Virus record (IMG/VR): IMGVR_UViG_3300046830_000003
Coordinates: 1 to 30,973 of that record
DNA from: a virus
Reading direction: 5' to 3' (one strand)
Length of the DNA stretch: 30,973 bases
The translations under genes and the position numbers were made by a program. The first letter of the stretch is position 1; the number at the start of each line of letters is the position of its first letter. Positions 3,090-30,555 of the stretch are shown piece after piece. The notes beneath the pieces were generated by a model. That model was not told where the DNA came from. It did no database searches and saw nothing but the letters and a program-made list of their open reading frames with translations.

Positions 3090-3425
3090 ATGGCAAACGC
3101 ATTTAAAACATTCACGGCGCAAAACATTGATACGTCATCAGGCAAAGCGACCCTGTACACTTGCCCCGCCAATACAGAAACTACAATCATTGGCCTCAAC
3201 ATTGCTAACATATTGACAGTCTCAATTACGGTTACAGTCGAGCTACTGGATGGTGGAAGCACTATTACTCATGTAGTTAAAGATGCAATTGTGCCTGTTG
3301 GATCATCTCTGGTGGCAGTCGGAGGACCTCAGAAAATTGTTATGAATGCTACTGACATATTAAAAGTTTATGGGTCACAGGCTAACTGCTGTGACGCAGT
3401 TCTGAGTGTACTGGAGATTACATAA
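3090..3425 (+). CDS. Small beta-rich virion protein
   Basis: 111 residues, with an AGGA ribosome-binding site just before the ATG. The sequence LYTCPANTETTIIGLNIAN, then alternating hydrophobic strands, IVPVGSSLVAVGG and VMNATDILKVYGSQA, follows a small phage structural pattern ('LYTVPA-T ... N ... V.IP.G.SL ... GD.L.V'). It contains two adjacent Cys (NCCD) near the C-terminus, probably incidental. The stop overlaps the ATG of the next fibre gene (TAATG), suggesting translational coupling. Function is not established; I infer a tail or capsid accessory protein from the fold pattern and context. Confidence 0.55.
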   Translation: MANAFKTFTAQNIDTSSGKATLYTCPANTETTIIGLNIANILTVSITVTVELLDGGSTITHVVKDAIVPVGSSLVAVGGPQKIVMNATDILKVYGSQANCCDAVLSVLEIT

Positions 3426-4369
3426 TGGCACTCGGCACTATTGGCACTAACCAGATTGCAAGCGAAGCAGTCACTGTACCGAAGGTGGCTGACCAAGTTC
3501 TGTCTAGCAGAAATCTCATAATTAACGGCTCTATGGATATAGCGCAACGCGGAAGCAGCCATACAACAGAAGGTTACGGTTCTTTAGATAGATATTATCT
3601 CGCACTTTCTGGTGCATCAGGAGTAACAATGTCACAGCAAGCATTTTCAACTGCTGACAGAAACTCTCTTGGATTTGAAAAATACCTAAAACTAGCAGTA
3701 ACAACTGCAAATAATAACTGTGGTGTTTATCAATACATTGAAGCGTCAAATGCTGTAAGTTTAATTGGTAACAAAGCTACACTCAGTTTTTACGCAAAAG
3801 GAACTAATCCCGCTGGTGGCAGTTTTACAATGCAACCCGCGTGGTATAATAAATCTAGTGGTGGTGGTGATAATGCAGTTGCTCAGTCTCTTACTGTAAC
3901 TTCATCGTGGGTCAAATACAGCTTTACGTTTGATATTCCAGCCCCTGCCAATACTGTTATAGATAACAATGCATATCTTTCACATTCGTTTGCTCAACCT
4001 TCTGGAGACACTAGCACAACTGCGTGGGAGTTAAATTTGGCTGGGTTGCAATTTGAACTAGGCGACACAGCCACGCCGTTTGAACACCGCAGCTTTGGTG
4101 ATGAGTTGGCTAGGTGTCAGAGGTATTATTGGCAATTTACTGCTAACAATCCTTTATACGCTTTTCAATACCATGATAGTTATAAATACGCAATTCGCCC
4201 ACATCCGGTTCAAATGAGAGCATCACCAACCATAACGGTTGCTTATACTGGTGGTTCTATGACGCAATACCAAGTTGATAATTATCATTGGAAAGCCTAC
4301 ATAGCTTCTGGCACTTCAGACACCACTTCTCGTTATGTAAACAGCCTTAAAGCGGATGCGGAGTTATAA
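3425..4369 (+). CDS. Tail fibre with carbohydrate-binding-like domain, copy A
   Basis: 314 residues. After a short N-terminal anchor (residues 1-28), NLIINGSMDIAQRG (30-43) opens a beta-sandwich domain typical of phage fibre proteins with carbohydrate-binding-module folds. It ends with WELNLAGLQFELGDTATPFE, then SFGDELARCQRYY (residues about 201-235). The remainder to residue 314 is a distal domain ending in DAEL. The gene is a paralogue of 9020-10072, which has the same landmarks and the same DAEL terminus, and each is followed by a related small gene. Likely role: receptor binding to a surface glycan. This is inferred from the family; no ligand can be read from sequence. Confidence 0.7.
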   Translation: MALGTIGTNQIASEAVTVPKVADQVLSSRNLIINGSMDIAQRGSSHTTEGYGSLDRYYLALSGASGVTMSQQAFSTADRNSLGFEKYLKLAVTTANNNCGVYQYIEASNAVSLIGNKATLSFYAKGTNPAGGSFTMQPAWYNKSSGGGDNAVAQSLTVTSSWVKYSFTFDIPAPANTVIDNNAYLSHSFAQPSGDTSTTAWELNLAGLQFELGDTATPFEHRSFGDELARCQRYYWQFTANNPLYAFQYHDSYKYAIRPHPVQMRASPTITVAYTGGSMTQYQVDNYHWKAYIASGTSDTTSRYVNSLKADAEL

Positions 4370-21516: not shown

Positions 21517-21963
21517 ATGAACAAAGATAGATTACGCGAAGAAATAGCCGAGGATGAGGGCTGCAAATACGAGGTGTATTTGGATCATTTAGCACTGCCA
21601 ACCTGTGGTGTGGGTCACTTGATCACTGAGCATGACGAAGAATATGGCAAACCAGTCGGCACTGTTGTTGAGCAGGAACGAGTTAGAAACTTATTTTCTT
21701 TAGACATTGCTGTAACGATTGACGAGTGCAAAGTATTGTACCCAGACTTTGATGACTTTGACGAAGAGCTACAACATATATTGTGCAACATGATGTTCAA
21801 TATGGGTCGGCCTCGACTGTCAAAATTCGTTGGTATGAAAGCTGGAGTTGATGCTCGTGATTTCAACGAAGCAGCCGACCAGATGGTAGATTCCAGGTGG
21901 TACACGCAAGTCCCCAACCGAGCTAGACGTTTGGTAGATCGGATGAGGGCGCTTGCTGACTAA
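21517..21963 (+). CDS. T4-type lysozyme (glycoside hydrolase 24)
   Basis: 148 residues. The catalytic pattern of T4 lysozyme, E-x8-D-x5-T, is present as E14, D23 and T29 within EDEGCKYEVYLDHLALPTCG. GVGHLIT follows, as in the family. The C-terminal half has NMMFNMGRPRLSKF and VPNRARRLVDRMRAL, matching the C-lobe. It cleaves the glycan strand of peptidoglycan. There is no signal peptide or transmembrane anchor, so release needs a holin (none seen nearby), or the enzyme acts as a virion wall-piercing component, which its position after the ejection genes would also fit. The last 41 bases overlap the antisense zinc-ribbon gene. Confidence 0.85.
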   Translation: MNKDRLREEIAEDEGCKYEVYLDHLALPTCGVGHLITEHDEEYGKPVGTVVEQERVRNLFSLDIAVTIDECKVLYPDFDDFDEELQHILCNMMFNMGRPRLSKFVGMKAGVDARDFNEAADQMVDSRWYTQVPNRARRLVDRMRALAD

Positions 21964-22096
21964 CTGTTTTGTGGTTTGATATTTGTAATTTGCATACGTT
22001 GCAGATTGCTATGTCTTTACTATAGTCCACTGCGCTTCTGCACTTAGGGCATTGCCCTGCTTCTATAAGCCTCTGCATTTGGCCTTTTTCATTCAT
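21923..22096 (-). CDS. Small zinc-ribbon protein, antisense
   Basis: 57 residues read on the minus strand from ATG at 22096 to TAG at 21923-21925. The protein is MNEKGQMQRLIEAGQCPKCR, then SAVDYSKDIAICNVCKLQIS and a short polar tail. C16, C19, C32 and C35 form C-x2-C-x12-C-x2-C, a classical zinc ribbon. The start overlaps the stop of the upstream minus-strand gene as ATGA, so the two are probably translated together. Its 3' end runs 41 bases into the lysozyme gene on the other strand. Nucleic-acid or protein binding through zinc is inferred; I recognise no family. Confidence 0.65.
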   Translation of the reverse strand: MNEKGQMQRLIEAGQCPKCRSAVDYSKDIAICNVCKLQISNHKTVSQQAPSSDLPNV

Positions 22097-22272
22097 GCGG
22101 CTGAACCTATGCCAGCGTTCACTTCATTAGGGTAACGCTCTTTATAGGCATCAAAAACAAGCTTTGAAATTTGTTGTGATACTTTGCGGTGGTCTTCTGT
22201 AGACAGCTTCACAAGCTTTTTATGTGTGGCAAGGTCTACAGCAACTGACTTGTATTGTTTCGTATCAGTCAT
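22093..22272 (-). CDS. Ribbon-helix-helix-like DNA-binding protein
   Basis: 59 residues from the ATG at 22272, preceded on the minus strand by GGGAG eight bases upstream. The more distal in-frame ATG at 22296 has no comparable site. After MTDTKQ, YKSVAVDLATHKKLVKLSTE gives a short strand and helix, then HRKVSQQISKLVFDAYKERY gives the second helix. This is the length and layout of Arc/CopG-type ribbon-helix-helix proteins, which bind DNA as dimers. With its partner it forms a two-gene operon opposed to all neighbours, at the border between late genes and the DNA-metabolism genes. I infer a transcriptional regulator, possibly of the divergent plus-strand genes. Confidence 0.65.
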   Translation of the reverse strand: MTDTKQYKSVAVDLATHKKLVKLSTEDHRKVSQQISKLVFDAYKERYPNEVNAGIGSAA

Positions 22273-22278
22273 TATAAT
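22250..22278 (+). promoter_or_regulatory. Candidate promoter for the DNA-metabolism operon
   Basis: TTGTAT, a 17-base spacer and a perfect TATAAT. The -35 match is weak (3 of 6). It overlaps the 5' end of the antisense ribbon-helix-helix gene and would start transcription about 22285, 30 bases before the nuclease ATG. Overlap with the regulator gene would allow mutual control. Confidence 0.4.
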
Positions 22279-22314
22279 ACTCCCATGAATTAACAACTAT
22301 GGGCATATATTAGC

Positions 22315-22695
22315 ATGTATAACTACAAACGCAAAGCGAACAAATTCGGTGCAAAGAAAACAACCTTTATGGGCATTAAGTTTGACTCCAAGTGGGAAGC
22401 AGAGCGATGGGGTGAGTTAACTTCTATGGAAAAGGCTGGTTATATAACAGACTTGCAGAGGCAAATCCCATACGAAATTGTGGTTAACGATCAAAAAATT
22501 TGTAAATATATAGCTGACTTTAAATATAATAAGGTAGATGATTACGGTAGCCTTGAAGAAGTTGTTGAGGATGCAAAGGGCGTGGAAACCGCTGAATTTA
22601 AACTCAAAAAGAAACTCATGAAAGCCGTTCATGGAGTTGAGATTTACCTGTCAAAGAAAAATAATAACAATTTTCTCAAAATCCCCTTGACTTGA
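22315..22695 (+). CDS. DUF1064 family nuclease (PD-(D/E)xK type)
   Basis: 126 residues. NKFGAKKTTFMGIKFDSKWE, then AERWGELTSMEKAGYITDLQ and RQIPYEI, is the DUF1064 signature, followed by the core YIADFKY (D68) and VVEDAKGVET (D86-x-K88). With E28 these give the layout of a PD-(D/E)xK endonuclease. Family members occur in the replication or recombination modules of many phages; a branched-DNA nuclease role has been suggested. It is the first gene of the rightward operon. The ribosome-binding site is weak (GGG 12 bases upstream). Confidence 0.75.
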   Translation: MYNYKRKANKFGAKKTTFMGIKFDSKWEAERWGELTSMEKAGYITDLQRQIPYEIVVNDQKICKYIADFKYNKVDDYGSLEEVVEDAKGVETAEFKLKKKLMKAVHGVEIYLSKKNNNNFLKIPLT

Positions 22696-27894: not shown

Positions 27895-27927
27895 AGTTGA
27901 AAACAATGCTTGGTAAGGATCAATATA

Positions 27928-30090
27928 ATGAGTGTGGTAAGGTTTGGCAATACTACATCTGGTAGTAATGACATAGTTGAGGAGATTTCTCGCAAAGTCC
28001 CCAAAGGCGAACAAATTCGGATTTTGCAGGATACATTCCCTGCTGGGCGTGTTCACGGCAAAACATTTTACATCGGTTCACTGCTTGGTGATCCGGGGCA
28101 ATCGTTAAAAATTAACATTGATCCTGCCTCGCAGCACTTCATGCAGGGGCAGGATTTCAACGGTGGTGTTGGTATCGGGGGTATCGTCAAGATACTGATG
28201 GAAGCGCGTAGTATGAAGCTCCCAGAAATAAAGGAGATGTTTTCTAGCTACCTTGACGGCACTGGGCCGCAAATTGTTCGGGATAACGCGCCGATAGAAA
28301 ACCCTATCAGGCCGCAGTACAATTCAAATAGCCCGTATGATGCTGAGTATGTATATACCAATGCTGATGGCGAGGTGCTGGTTTCCGTTAGGCGGTATAA
28401 CGTCAAGGACATTGCTGGCAACCCTATGCTCAACACAAAGGGCAAGCCAAAGAAAGAGTTCAGGCCATTTGTCGAAGGCTCTCCATACTCCAAGTTTCCA
28501 GACATACGCCCGTTATATAACATTCCGAATGTATTGGCATCTGATCGTGTTATATGGGTCGAAGGCGAGAAGTGTGCTGATGCTCTAAACCATGCTGGAT
28601 ATACAGCTACCTGCACGATTGGCGGGGCTGGTGCGCTAACAAAGAAGACTGCTCACCAGTTTGACTTTTCTCCGTTACAGAACAAAGAGCTTATCTTATG
28701 GCCTGATAATGATCCTGCTGGTAAAAAGCTGGCTGATCTTATCCAGGACTTTGCTTTGGCTGCTGGTGTTAAGTCGGTCACAATGCTTACGCCGCCAATG
28801 GGCAAGCCCGAAGGGTGGGATGCTTCAGATGCTTTGTCTGAGGGCTACAACATTGAAAACTTTGTTAATACCAAAGCCAAAATAACTAAAACAAACATCA
28901 ATCTTCTTGACGAGTCATTCCTTGTCAGTCGGTTTGCCGGGACTGCACCTGAACAAAAGTTCTTGATTGATGGCACGTTTCCGCTCGGAGTTCCTATTCT
29001 GTTTGCCGCTGCTGGTGATGCTGGTAAAGGCATGATGACACTGGACATGGGCATGAAGATAGCGTCAGGCAAGCCAATGACAAGTACGTTTGGCGGTCTG
29101 GTCAAAGAGTTCGGAAACGTGGTGATCTTTACTGCTGAAGATGATGAAGCTGAGATGCACAGGAGAGTTGAGCGTCTTGATCCGTTTGAAGAGCGGCATG
29201 GCTACAACCATGATCTGAAGATTGTATCGCTTCCGAATGTCGGCGGTGTGTTTGCAATTATGAACGAGTCCAACGGCGAGTTCGGTACAACAGCAGAGTT
29301 TGAAAAGATATACGAACAAATCTTGCAAATGAGTAACCTAAAGCTGATTGTGTTCGATCCACTGGCATCTTTTGTCCATGCAGATGTAAATGCTGATCCG
29401 GCTGCGGGGGCTGCTTTAACAGGTCTGCTGGCTAGAATGGCAACAGAAACAGGTGCATCTGTACTGGTTTGTCACCACATGACGAAGATCAAGGACAATG
29501 CTGTAATTAAAACACCCGAAGAAGCGCGTAATCTAATCAGGGGTACGACTGCTCTTGTTGATGGGGTCAGGTCTTCATTTGCGTTATGGCAGGTTGATGC
29601 TCAACGCGGCAAGAAGACTTGTGAGCGGCTAGGTTTACCATACCAGCGTAACAGTTGTTTCGATGGCGCTGTAGTCAAGTCTAACGGACCAGCCAGTAGA
29701 AATGTTCGGCATTTTGTACGAGATCCAATGACTGGGCTGCTAAATGATCGCACTGAAGAGATCAAATCACTTAACAGCGGTACAGTTCTTGAGATGAAGC
29801 TGGACGCTATGGCTGATTGGATTATCCATTGTGAGCGCGAAGGTGTGGCTCTAACCCATATGAGTGGCAACAACGGAGTTCATAAACGGTCAGAGGACGC
29901 TGATGCCCCTGAGATACTGCAAGGCATCGGGAAGCAGACACTAGAAGGATATGTTCGTAGTCTACAACAGGACAATCGAATTGATAAGTTCCAGTTGACG
30001 GCTACAGGTGGCAGAGTATGGCTCGGAGCAGTTGATGGGCCTATGAGTCGAGGTGAATATGAAGCGGTAACAGCGAGGGATAATGTCTAA
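27928..30090 (+). CDS. TOPRIM primase fused to RepA-like helicase ATPase
   Basis: 720 residues from ATG 27928, nine bases after AAGGAT; an upstream TTG at 27910 is not needed. Residues 45-100 look like a zinc-binding-domain remnant without Cys (SLKINIDPASQHFMQGQDF). The TOPRIM domain has VEGEKCADAL (211-220) and LWPDNDPAGKK (257-267), the primase metal-binding acids. The ATPase has AAAGDAGKGMM (360-370) as Walker A, VIFTAEDDEAE (399-409), LIVFDPLASF (473-482) as Walker B, and VCHHMTK (514-520). The C-terminal 100 residues look like a winged helix. It probably makes primers and unwinds at the fork. The Gly after the Walker Lys (usually Ser/Thr) is odd. Confidence 0.8.
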   Translation: MSVVRFGNTTSGSNDIVEEISRKVPKGEQIRILQDTFPAGRVHGKTFYIGSLLGDPGQSLKINIDPASQHFMQGQDFNGGVGIGGIVKILMEARSMKLPEIKEMFSSYLDGTGPQIVRDNAPIENPIRPQYNSNSPYDAEYVYTNADGEVLVSVRRYNVKDIAGNPMLNTKGKPKKEFRPFVEGSPYSKFPDIRPLYNIPNVLASDRVIWVEGEKCADALNHAGYTATCTIGGAGALTKKTAHQFDFSPLQNKELILWPDNDPAGKKLADLIQDFALAAGVKSVTMLTPPMGKPEGWDASDALSEGYNIENFVNTKAKITKTNINLLDESFLVSRFAGTAPEQKFLIDGTFPLGVPILFAAAGDAGKGMMTLDMGMKIASGKPMTSTFGGLVKEFGNVVIFTAEDDEAEMHRRVERLDPFEERHGYNHDLKIVSLPNVGGVFAIMNESNGEFGTTAEFEKIYEQILQMSNLKLIVFDPLASFVHADVNADPAAGAALTGLLARMATETGASVLVCHHMTKIKDNAVIKTPEEARNLIRGTTALVDGVRSSFALWQVDAQRGKKTCERLGLPYQRNSCFDGAVVKSNGPASRNVRHFVRDPMTGLLNDRTEEIKSLNSGTVLEMKLDAMADWIIHCEREGVALTHMSGNNGVHKRSEDADAPEILQGIGKQTLEGYVRSLQQDNRIDKFQLTATGGRVWLGAVDGPMSRGEYEAVTARDNV

Positions 30091-30289
30091 TATTGATGAT
30101 TTGTTTGGGGAATATGCAGATCCGTGGCGCAAAAAGCGGCTAAAAGAGATGTCGGAAAACAAAAAAGCCCCGGAGAAACGGCGCAGCACCGGGCCGAAAG
30201 AGAACATTTGTTCGTATTGTGGCAGCAACTGGGCTTGGCACAGCAGCGATGACGGGAAGACTTGGCAATGCAGGGAGCATCAAGAATGA
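30083..30289 (+). CDS. Small zinc-finger-like protein
   Basis: 68 residues, starting 8 bases inside the primase-helicase gene. The N-terminal half is charged and basic (PWRKKRLKEMSENKKAPEKR). ICSYCGSNWAWHSSDDGKTW, then QCREHQE, gives C43, C46, C63 and H66, a C-x2-C-x16-C-x2-H set that could bind one zinc. Nothing more specific is recognisable. Its stop overlaps the next ATG (ATGA). Position in the replication block suggests a nucleic-acid-binding accessory role. Confidence 0.55.
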   Translation: MSNIDDLFGEYADPWRKKRLKEMSENKKAPEKRRSTGPKENICSYCGSNWAWHSSDDGKTWQCREHQE

Positions 30290-30555
30290 AAAGGGCGGAA
30301 GTGCTGGACACAGCAAAGAAGTATGTAACGAAAGACAGAGCAGCAGATCATGGCGCTATGGAGGATAATTTCCGAACAATTGCTCGTTACTGGTCAATTC
30401 ACCTGGGTATCGAAGTCAGCCCAACAGATGTGGGGGTGTTAATGAGTCTGCTTAAAATTGCTCGTATTAAAAGCAACGTAAGTCACGAAGACAATTACAT
30501 TGATGGCTGCGGATACCTTGCTTGCGCCGCAGAGTGTGAAAATGATGCAGGATAA
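30286..30555 (+). CDS. DUF6378-like protein
   Basis: 89 residues from ATG 30286, which overlaps the upstream stop as ATGA; the ATG 24 bases upstream lies inside the previous gene and is less likely. The pattern RAEVLDTAKKYVTKDRAADH, GAMEDNFRTIARYWSIHLGI, DVGVLMSLLKIARI and HEDNYIDGCGYLACAAE is the DUF6378 family, common in phages. It is a small helical bundle resembling MazG-type nucleotide pyrophosphohydrolases in layout. I cannot confirm enzymatic activity from the sequence. Confidence 0.7.
   Translation: MKRAEVLDTAKKYVTKDRAADHGAMEDNFRTIARYWSIHLGIEVSPTDVGVLMSLLKIARIKSNVSHEDNYIDGCGYLACAAECENDAG

Follow-up and report, generated by a model that had tools for sequence, protein, structure and literature searches.

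Gene-specific repression is the usual role of small ribbon-helix-helix (RHH) repressors of the Arc/CopG type. The phage locus described here resembles phage P22 Arc and the CopG repressors in the size of its RHH protein (about 45–60 aa in this class), its RHH topology, its fold matches, and the placement of its gene beside its own promoter. It differs from them in that sequence similarity is near noise and the candidate operator consists of 10-bp direct repeats, and also in that a search of 28 related records revealed no integrase, so that a role in lysogeny is not indicated here. RHH autorepressors acting at divergent promoters are already known, and what is new here is a probable further member, in a group of uncultured phages.

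Viral examples have been described as well. SvtR, a small RHH protein of the archaeal virus SIRV1, represses transcription from its own promoter, and F55 is a viral RHH protein that uses tandem repeats (PMC5569661). The likeness of both to the protein described here comes without a demonstrated sequence relationship, and SvtR differs further in belonging to an archaeal virus and in repressing a structural gene, whereas the operon adjacent to this locus is one of DNA replication. Type II toxin-antitoxin loci with RHH antitoxins share the arrangement of a small RHH gene followed by an overlapping small second gene. Here, however, the second gene is dispensable, switches strand between lineages, and encodes a zinc ribbon without toxin-family similarity. 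The closest relatives of that second protein are phage zinc ribbons with the motif GDG-x2-Q...DAG-x-CP-x-C, found in many uncultured phages, which share its four cysteines, N-terminal helix, and motif. The member studied here is coupled to an RHH gene, whereas others lie near genes for NrdR-like proteins, primase, or DNA polymerase, or after lysozyme.

Gene layout at the late/DNA-metabolism junction

The window, meaning the whole stretch of DNA that was analysed, is a complete IMG/VR record of 30,973 bases. Only 2 of its genes are on the minus strand, and the remaining plausible genes, about 40, are all on the plus strand; the sequence-only reading had correctly singled out this lone pair but had set it among about 45 plus-strand genes. 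It had also placed the pair at the boundary between the late and DNA-metabolism blocks, which is correct, and this placement is conserved in relatives. The pair lies between a lysozyme gene and a DNA-metabolism block that starts with a DUF1064 gene, divergent from the RHH gene, and continues with Sak4, helicase, a PD-(D/E)XK protein, and primase. The features of the junction are as follows:

21517–21963, plus strand: phage lysozyme gene (PF00959, E 3e-7), which closes the late block and converges on the zinc-ribbon gene
21923–22096, minus strand: zinc-ribbon gene, 57 aa (ATG at 22096, stop at 21923), with C16-x2-C19-x12-C32-x2-C35
22093–22096, minus strand: ATGA stop/start overlap of the RHH and zinc-ribbon genes, a sign of translational coupling
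22093–22272, minus strand: RHH gene, 59 aa (ATG at 22272, stop at 22093)
22250–22278, plus strand: candidate promoter TTGTAT-N17-TATAAT, reading toward the DUF1064/Sak4/helicase/primase operon
22273–22314, no strand assigned: divergent control region separating the RHH gene from the DUF1064 gene, 42 bp
22282–22306, no strand assigned: candidate operator, with CCCAT at 22282–22286, a degenerate middle unit at 22292–22296, and GGCAT at 22302–22306
22315–22695, plus strand: DUF1064/Holliday-junction-resolvase-like endonuclease gene (PF06356, E 8e-14; phrog_190, E 1e-27), which opens the DNA-metabolism block

The coordinates and cysteine spacing first read from the letters hold throughout, as does the ATGA overlap, which is exact. 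This overlap is retained across the minus-strand lineages, with the exception of L070 and L071 (TAATG) and of L021, where a nuclease open reading frame (ORF) lies in between. The recurrence of the pair with an ATGA or TAATG overlap among lower-identity IMG/VR relatives marks it as more than chance. At its 3' end, the zinc-ribbon gene overlaps the lysozyme gene by 41 bp, an antisense run that is present in the window as first described. The overlap is absent from the L022–L032 group and is therefore incidental.

Further along the DNA-metabolism side of the window, the protein encoded at 27910–30090 is primase/helicase-like, with its best deposited relatives in Wolbachia phage WO (about 39–44% identity).

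The two minus-strand genes and their distribution

The first minus-strand gene is real, and its product is predicted to have an RHH fold, as the sequence-only reading had called it. Its dN/dS is 0.04–0.23 (pairs of about 75–100% RHH protein identity), and codon usage supports it. An AlphaFold model of the monomer (pLDDT 77, modest confidence) has an extended segment at residues 7–13 and helices at residues 14–26 and 31–46, matching the RHH topology of a short strand followed by two helices; in RHH proteins, the strand takes shape only in the dimer. The best structural neighbours of the model are MatP, Arc, CopG, and PutA (Z up to 6; MatP top in Foldseek), and the Foldseek and VIA lists are both led by RHH proteins, with weak single E-values. 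Profile libraries gave no match to the protein above curated cut-off; MatP_C and the Arc-like phrog_3180 were sub-threshold (Pfam), the latter near noise (E 0.02), and PDB profile matches were weak. A match to a curated profile is not a structural requirement of the RHH fold. The predicted DNA-contacting strand spans approximately residues 7–13 (YKSVAVD), and K8-S9-V10-A11-V12-D13 is invariant in an alignment of 15 homologues. The segment matching K8–D13 is where RHH proteins touch bases, and we infer that this protein dimerises and binds DNA.

The codon usage of the zinc-ribbon gene would not by itself mark a gene (mean log-odds −0.13), so its status rests on conservation, by which it is a real gene. 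All four cysteines of its two CxxC pairs are invariant in 19 homologues, in keeping with a zinc ribbon; zinc binding by the protein is predicted. Its dN/dS is 0–0.35 (first 41 codons), and values for both genes are mostly <0.25. No relative in IMG/VR, whether close or distant, has either frame broken by stops, and dN/dS is well below 1, two sequence-based points on which the first reading had staked the zinc-ribbon frame. That reading had also called the zinc ribbon novel, but it is not unique, belonging as a branch to a small family of phage proteins defined by a short N-terminal helix and the GDG-x2-Q...DAG-x-CP-x-C motif, a family overlooked by curated libraries. Members of this family also occur in unrelated phages: in L110 one stands next to an NrdR-like ribbon and DNA polymerase, and in G005 and L134 one lies between a primase and a DUF6378-like gene. 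Fold and profile comparisons of the zinc ribbon returned unspecific ribbon proteins, among them RNA polymerase and TFS types, with no E below 0.001, and no curated family reached its cut-off for the window protein. Its most likely role would be in binding either nucleic acid or the replication or transcription machinery.

Other zinc ribbons were seen in passing. A further zinc-ribbon-like ORF occurs in the window at 30083–30289, directly before a DUF6378 gene (30262–30555; PF19905, E 2e-29), and in G005 the slot before the DUF6378 gene is occupied by a GDG-type zinc ribbon. L030 carries an additional zinc ribbon, which runs in the late direction.

Related loci were found in IMG/VR via the neighbouring DUF1064 gene, which was used as the anchor in place of the RHH gene to avoid circularity. 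The best 80 of 415 loci were taken, down to 63% identity; 75 of them retain upstream DNA, and 66 also show the lysozyme gene. Many of these loci are near-copies, and the tallies that follow count records rather than independent events. Within this best 80 of 415, the RHH gene is divergent from DUF1064 in all 75 loci with upstream DNA. Of the 66 loci with a visible lysozyme gene, 26 have the zinc ribbon on the minus strand, coupled to the RHH gene, and 4 have it on the plus strand right after lysozyme (L168, L169, L207, and L209); in the other 36 it was not detected. The RHH gene is thus what all these loci share, and the zinc ribbon is an accessory. Recurrence at this junction holds throughout for the RHH gene (75/75) but not for the coupled zinc ribbon (26/66, best 80 of 415), and "coupled" fits one lineage group without serving as a general description. 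The zinc ribbon is a genuine but optional passenger and, judged by this distribution, very probably not a toxin partner.

Beyond these loci, other phages have relatives of the zinc ribbon with no RHH gene next to them, and some larger phages, such as G016, carry the two families apart. Among cultured phages (50,697 deposited phage records), neither protein had a homologue, and no RHH–zinc ribbon pair was listed in 5 cultured-phage DUF1064 neighbourhoods. The bacterial genomes searched gave no RHH match and a single weak zinc-ribbon match, in a Gordonia contig (L133, 8001–8132; 39%, E 9e-6). A literature search for the combination of RHH and zinc ribbon found nothing.

The divergent control region and its candidate operator

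In every lineage measured, 41–44 bp separate the RHH gene from the DUF1064 gene. Compared with L011, L019, L022, L069, and L071, this control region of the window diverges by 10–14%, against 26–62% at fourfold sites of the RHH gene; the contrast is smaller for L015 (7% versus 17%). The candidate promoter is intact or nearly so in 23 of 24 distinct sequences, the exception being L206. Its −35 element lies inside the RHH coding sequence at codons 6–8, and the codons beneath it are frozen (Lys8 is AAG in 20/20 and Tyr7 is TAC in 17/17), while other lysine codons are mixed. This −35 is weak, agreeing with the consensus at 3 of 6 bases; the poor fit makes promoter function putative, and it also explains why a sigma-70 scan of the window did not pick up the element. 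Taken together with its conservation, the intergenic region appears to behave like a promoter-operator to which the RHH protein may bind, and the "genetic switch" first proposed for the pair would fit a conserved divergent promoter region of this kind.

Downstream of the −10, the candidate operator units stand in a 10-bp register. Summed over lineages, the lag-10 direct repeat stands out (P = 0.001–0.003), and a test for direct repeats at any lag gave P = 0.007–0.043, both by joint permutation of alignment columns, which preserves relatedness. The lag-10 repeat had weaker values in an earlier, smaller set and is not significant in the window's near group alone. The middle unit is AACAA (degenerate) in the window lineage, whereas lineages that lack an RHH-coupled zinc ribbon have CCAT there. 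An inverted-repeat operator, CCCAT...ATGGG at 22282–22304, was considered, but it is not kept in relatives, and direct repeats fit better. The window contains one exact site, with near misses at chance level, so multiple operator sites per genome were also discarded, and the three-unit CAT pattern in the window is not above chance.

Operator type is associated with RHH type. Residue 30 of the RHH protein matches the middle operator unit in 40/40 unique loci, Lys30 proteins occurring with the degenerate unit and Asn/Tyr30 proteins with a CCAT/CCAC-type unit, a pattern that was spotted in the same data in which it was counted. In partial Mantel tests, intergenic distance correlated with RHH distance given DUF1064 (r 0.47, 0/1000 permutations) and with DUF1064 distance given RHH (r 0.22, P 0.001). 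The intergenic sequence thus seems to track RHH type more than DUF1064 type, although part of this correlation is due to linkage, because the tract touches both genes. The two genes can also disagree in their relatedness to the window: L011 has 65% identity in DUF1064 and 93% in RHH, and L147 has 94% and 56%. About three changes of cassette type have to be assumed on the DUF1064 tree, one of them on well-supported branches, and a one-clade arrangement is weakly rejected (AU p 0.042). Exchange of RHH gene and operator between phages is likely on these grounds, if not firmly shown, and a regulator may thus pass from phage to phage with its operator as one cassette.

Regulatory readings of the locus

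We consider it probable that the RHH protein acts as an autorepressor of Arc/CopG type on the early replication operon, accompanied by an accessory zinc ribbon. A small dimeric repressor would bind the 42 bp that separate its own gene from the DUF1064 gene, using the CCAT-type direct repeats with 10-bp spacing just past the −10 of TTGTAT-N17-TATAAT, and would bind also around its own ribosome site and promoter. Bound at all of these, it would limit both itself and the replication genes, lowering the plus-strand DUF1064, Sak4, helicase, and primase operon as infection proceeds. In the window lineage, the zinc ribbon would be co-expressed on the same transcript, and the switch would work without it. 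A role of the RHH protein in lytic timing is more likely than one in lysogeny, because 28 related records yielded no tyrosine integrase and 11 no serine resolvase, although these records may be fragments. Such a switch would likely be a master control point of DNA replication genes in uncultured marine podovirus-like phages in which no integrase was found, and it comes with a short candidate operator that is open to testing.

Other readings share parts of this evidence. The zinc ribbon could instead modulate the RHH protein or RNA polymerase at the promoter wherever both occur, making a two-part switch, in which case RHH gene, operator, and zinc ribbon would form an exchangeable cassette and an early-gene switch undescribed before. 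All lineages with an RHH-coupled zinc ribbon do share the altered middle operator unit and K30 (not N/Y30), and some of the weak zinc-ribbon matches are to RNA polymerase or TFS-type ribbons. These matches are, however, non-specific, none having an E below 0.001, and with few independent changes (one well supported, three in all), common descent may explain the association; we regard a two-part switch as unlikely. Slightly less probable still is a replication-origin or segregation module, in which a MatP-, ParG-, or CdbA-like RHH protein would sit on iteron-like 10-bp repeats without acting mainly as a transcription repressor. RHH proteins with DNA-organising or segregation-type roles do exist, CdbA among them (PMC7156744), MatP is the top Foldseek match, and the direct repeats lie at the edge of the replication genes. 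Against this, the window has one operator site only, the repeats directly adjoin a conserved promoter in a region of just 41–44 bp, and fold likeness at the size of an RHH protein does not separate functions.

The layout had also suggested a type II toxin-antitoxin locus, with the RHH protein as antitoxin and the zinc ribbon as a toxin of a new type. The pair does resemble such loci in its gene order, its ATGA overlap, and the fold of the RHH protein, whose fold matches include the antitoxins AtaR, TacA, and MazE, but the two genes are separable, which argues against an obligate pair and leaves this reading very improbable. Across the 66 loci (best 80 of 415), the zinc ribbon is coupled in 26, on the opposite strand in 4, where it sits in the lysozyme operon, and undetected beside the RHH gene in 36, and its relatives elsewhere lack an adjacent RHH gene. 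The RHH protein has no C-terminal neutralising extension, and there was no meaningful PADLOC match. In L021, the two genes are separated by an unrelated ORF at 2313–2747 for a PDDEXK_14 putative endonuclease (PF24579, E 2.8e-35), itself ATGA-coupled to the RHH gene.

The same record carries, at 3411–3611, a short ORF recognised by eye as similar to DUF1289-type cysteine motif proteins. PDDEXK_5-type endonuclease genes adjoin the RHH locus in L030 (5301–5916, borderline), L080 (1856–2278), and L135 (1270–1824, sub-threshold).
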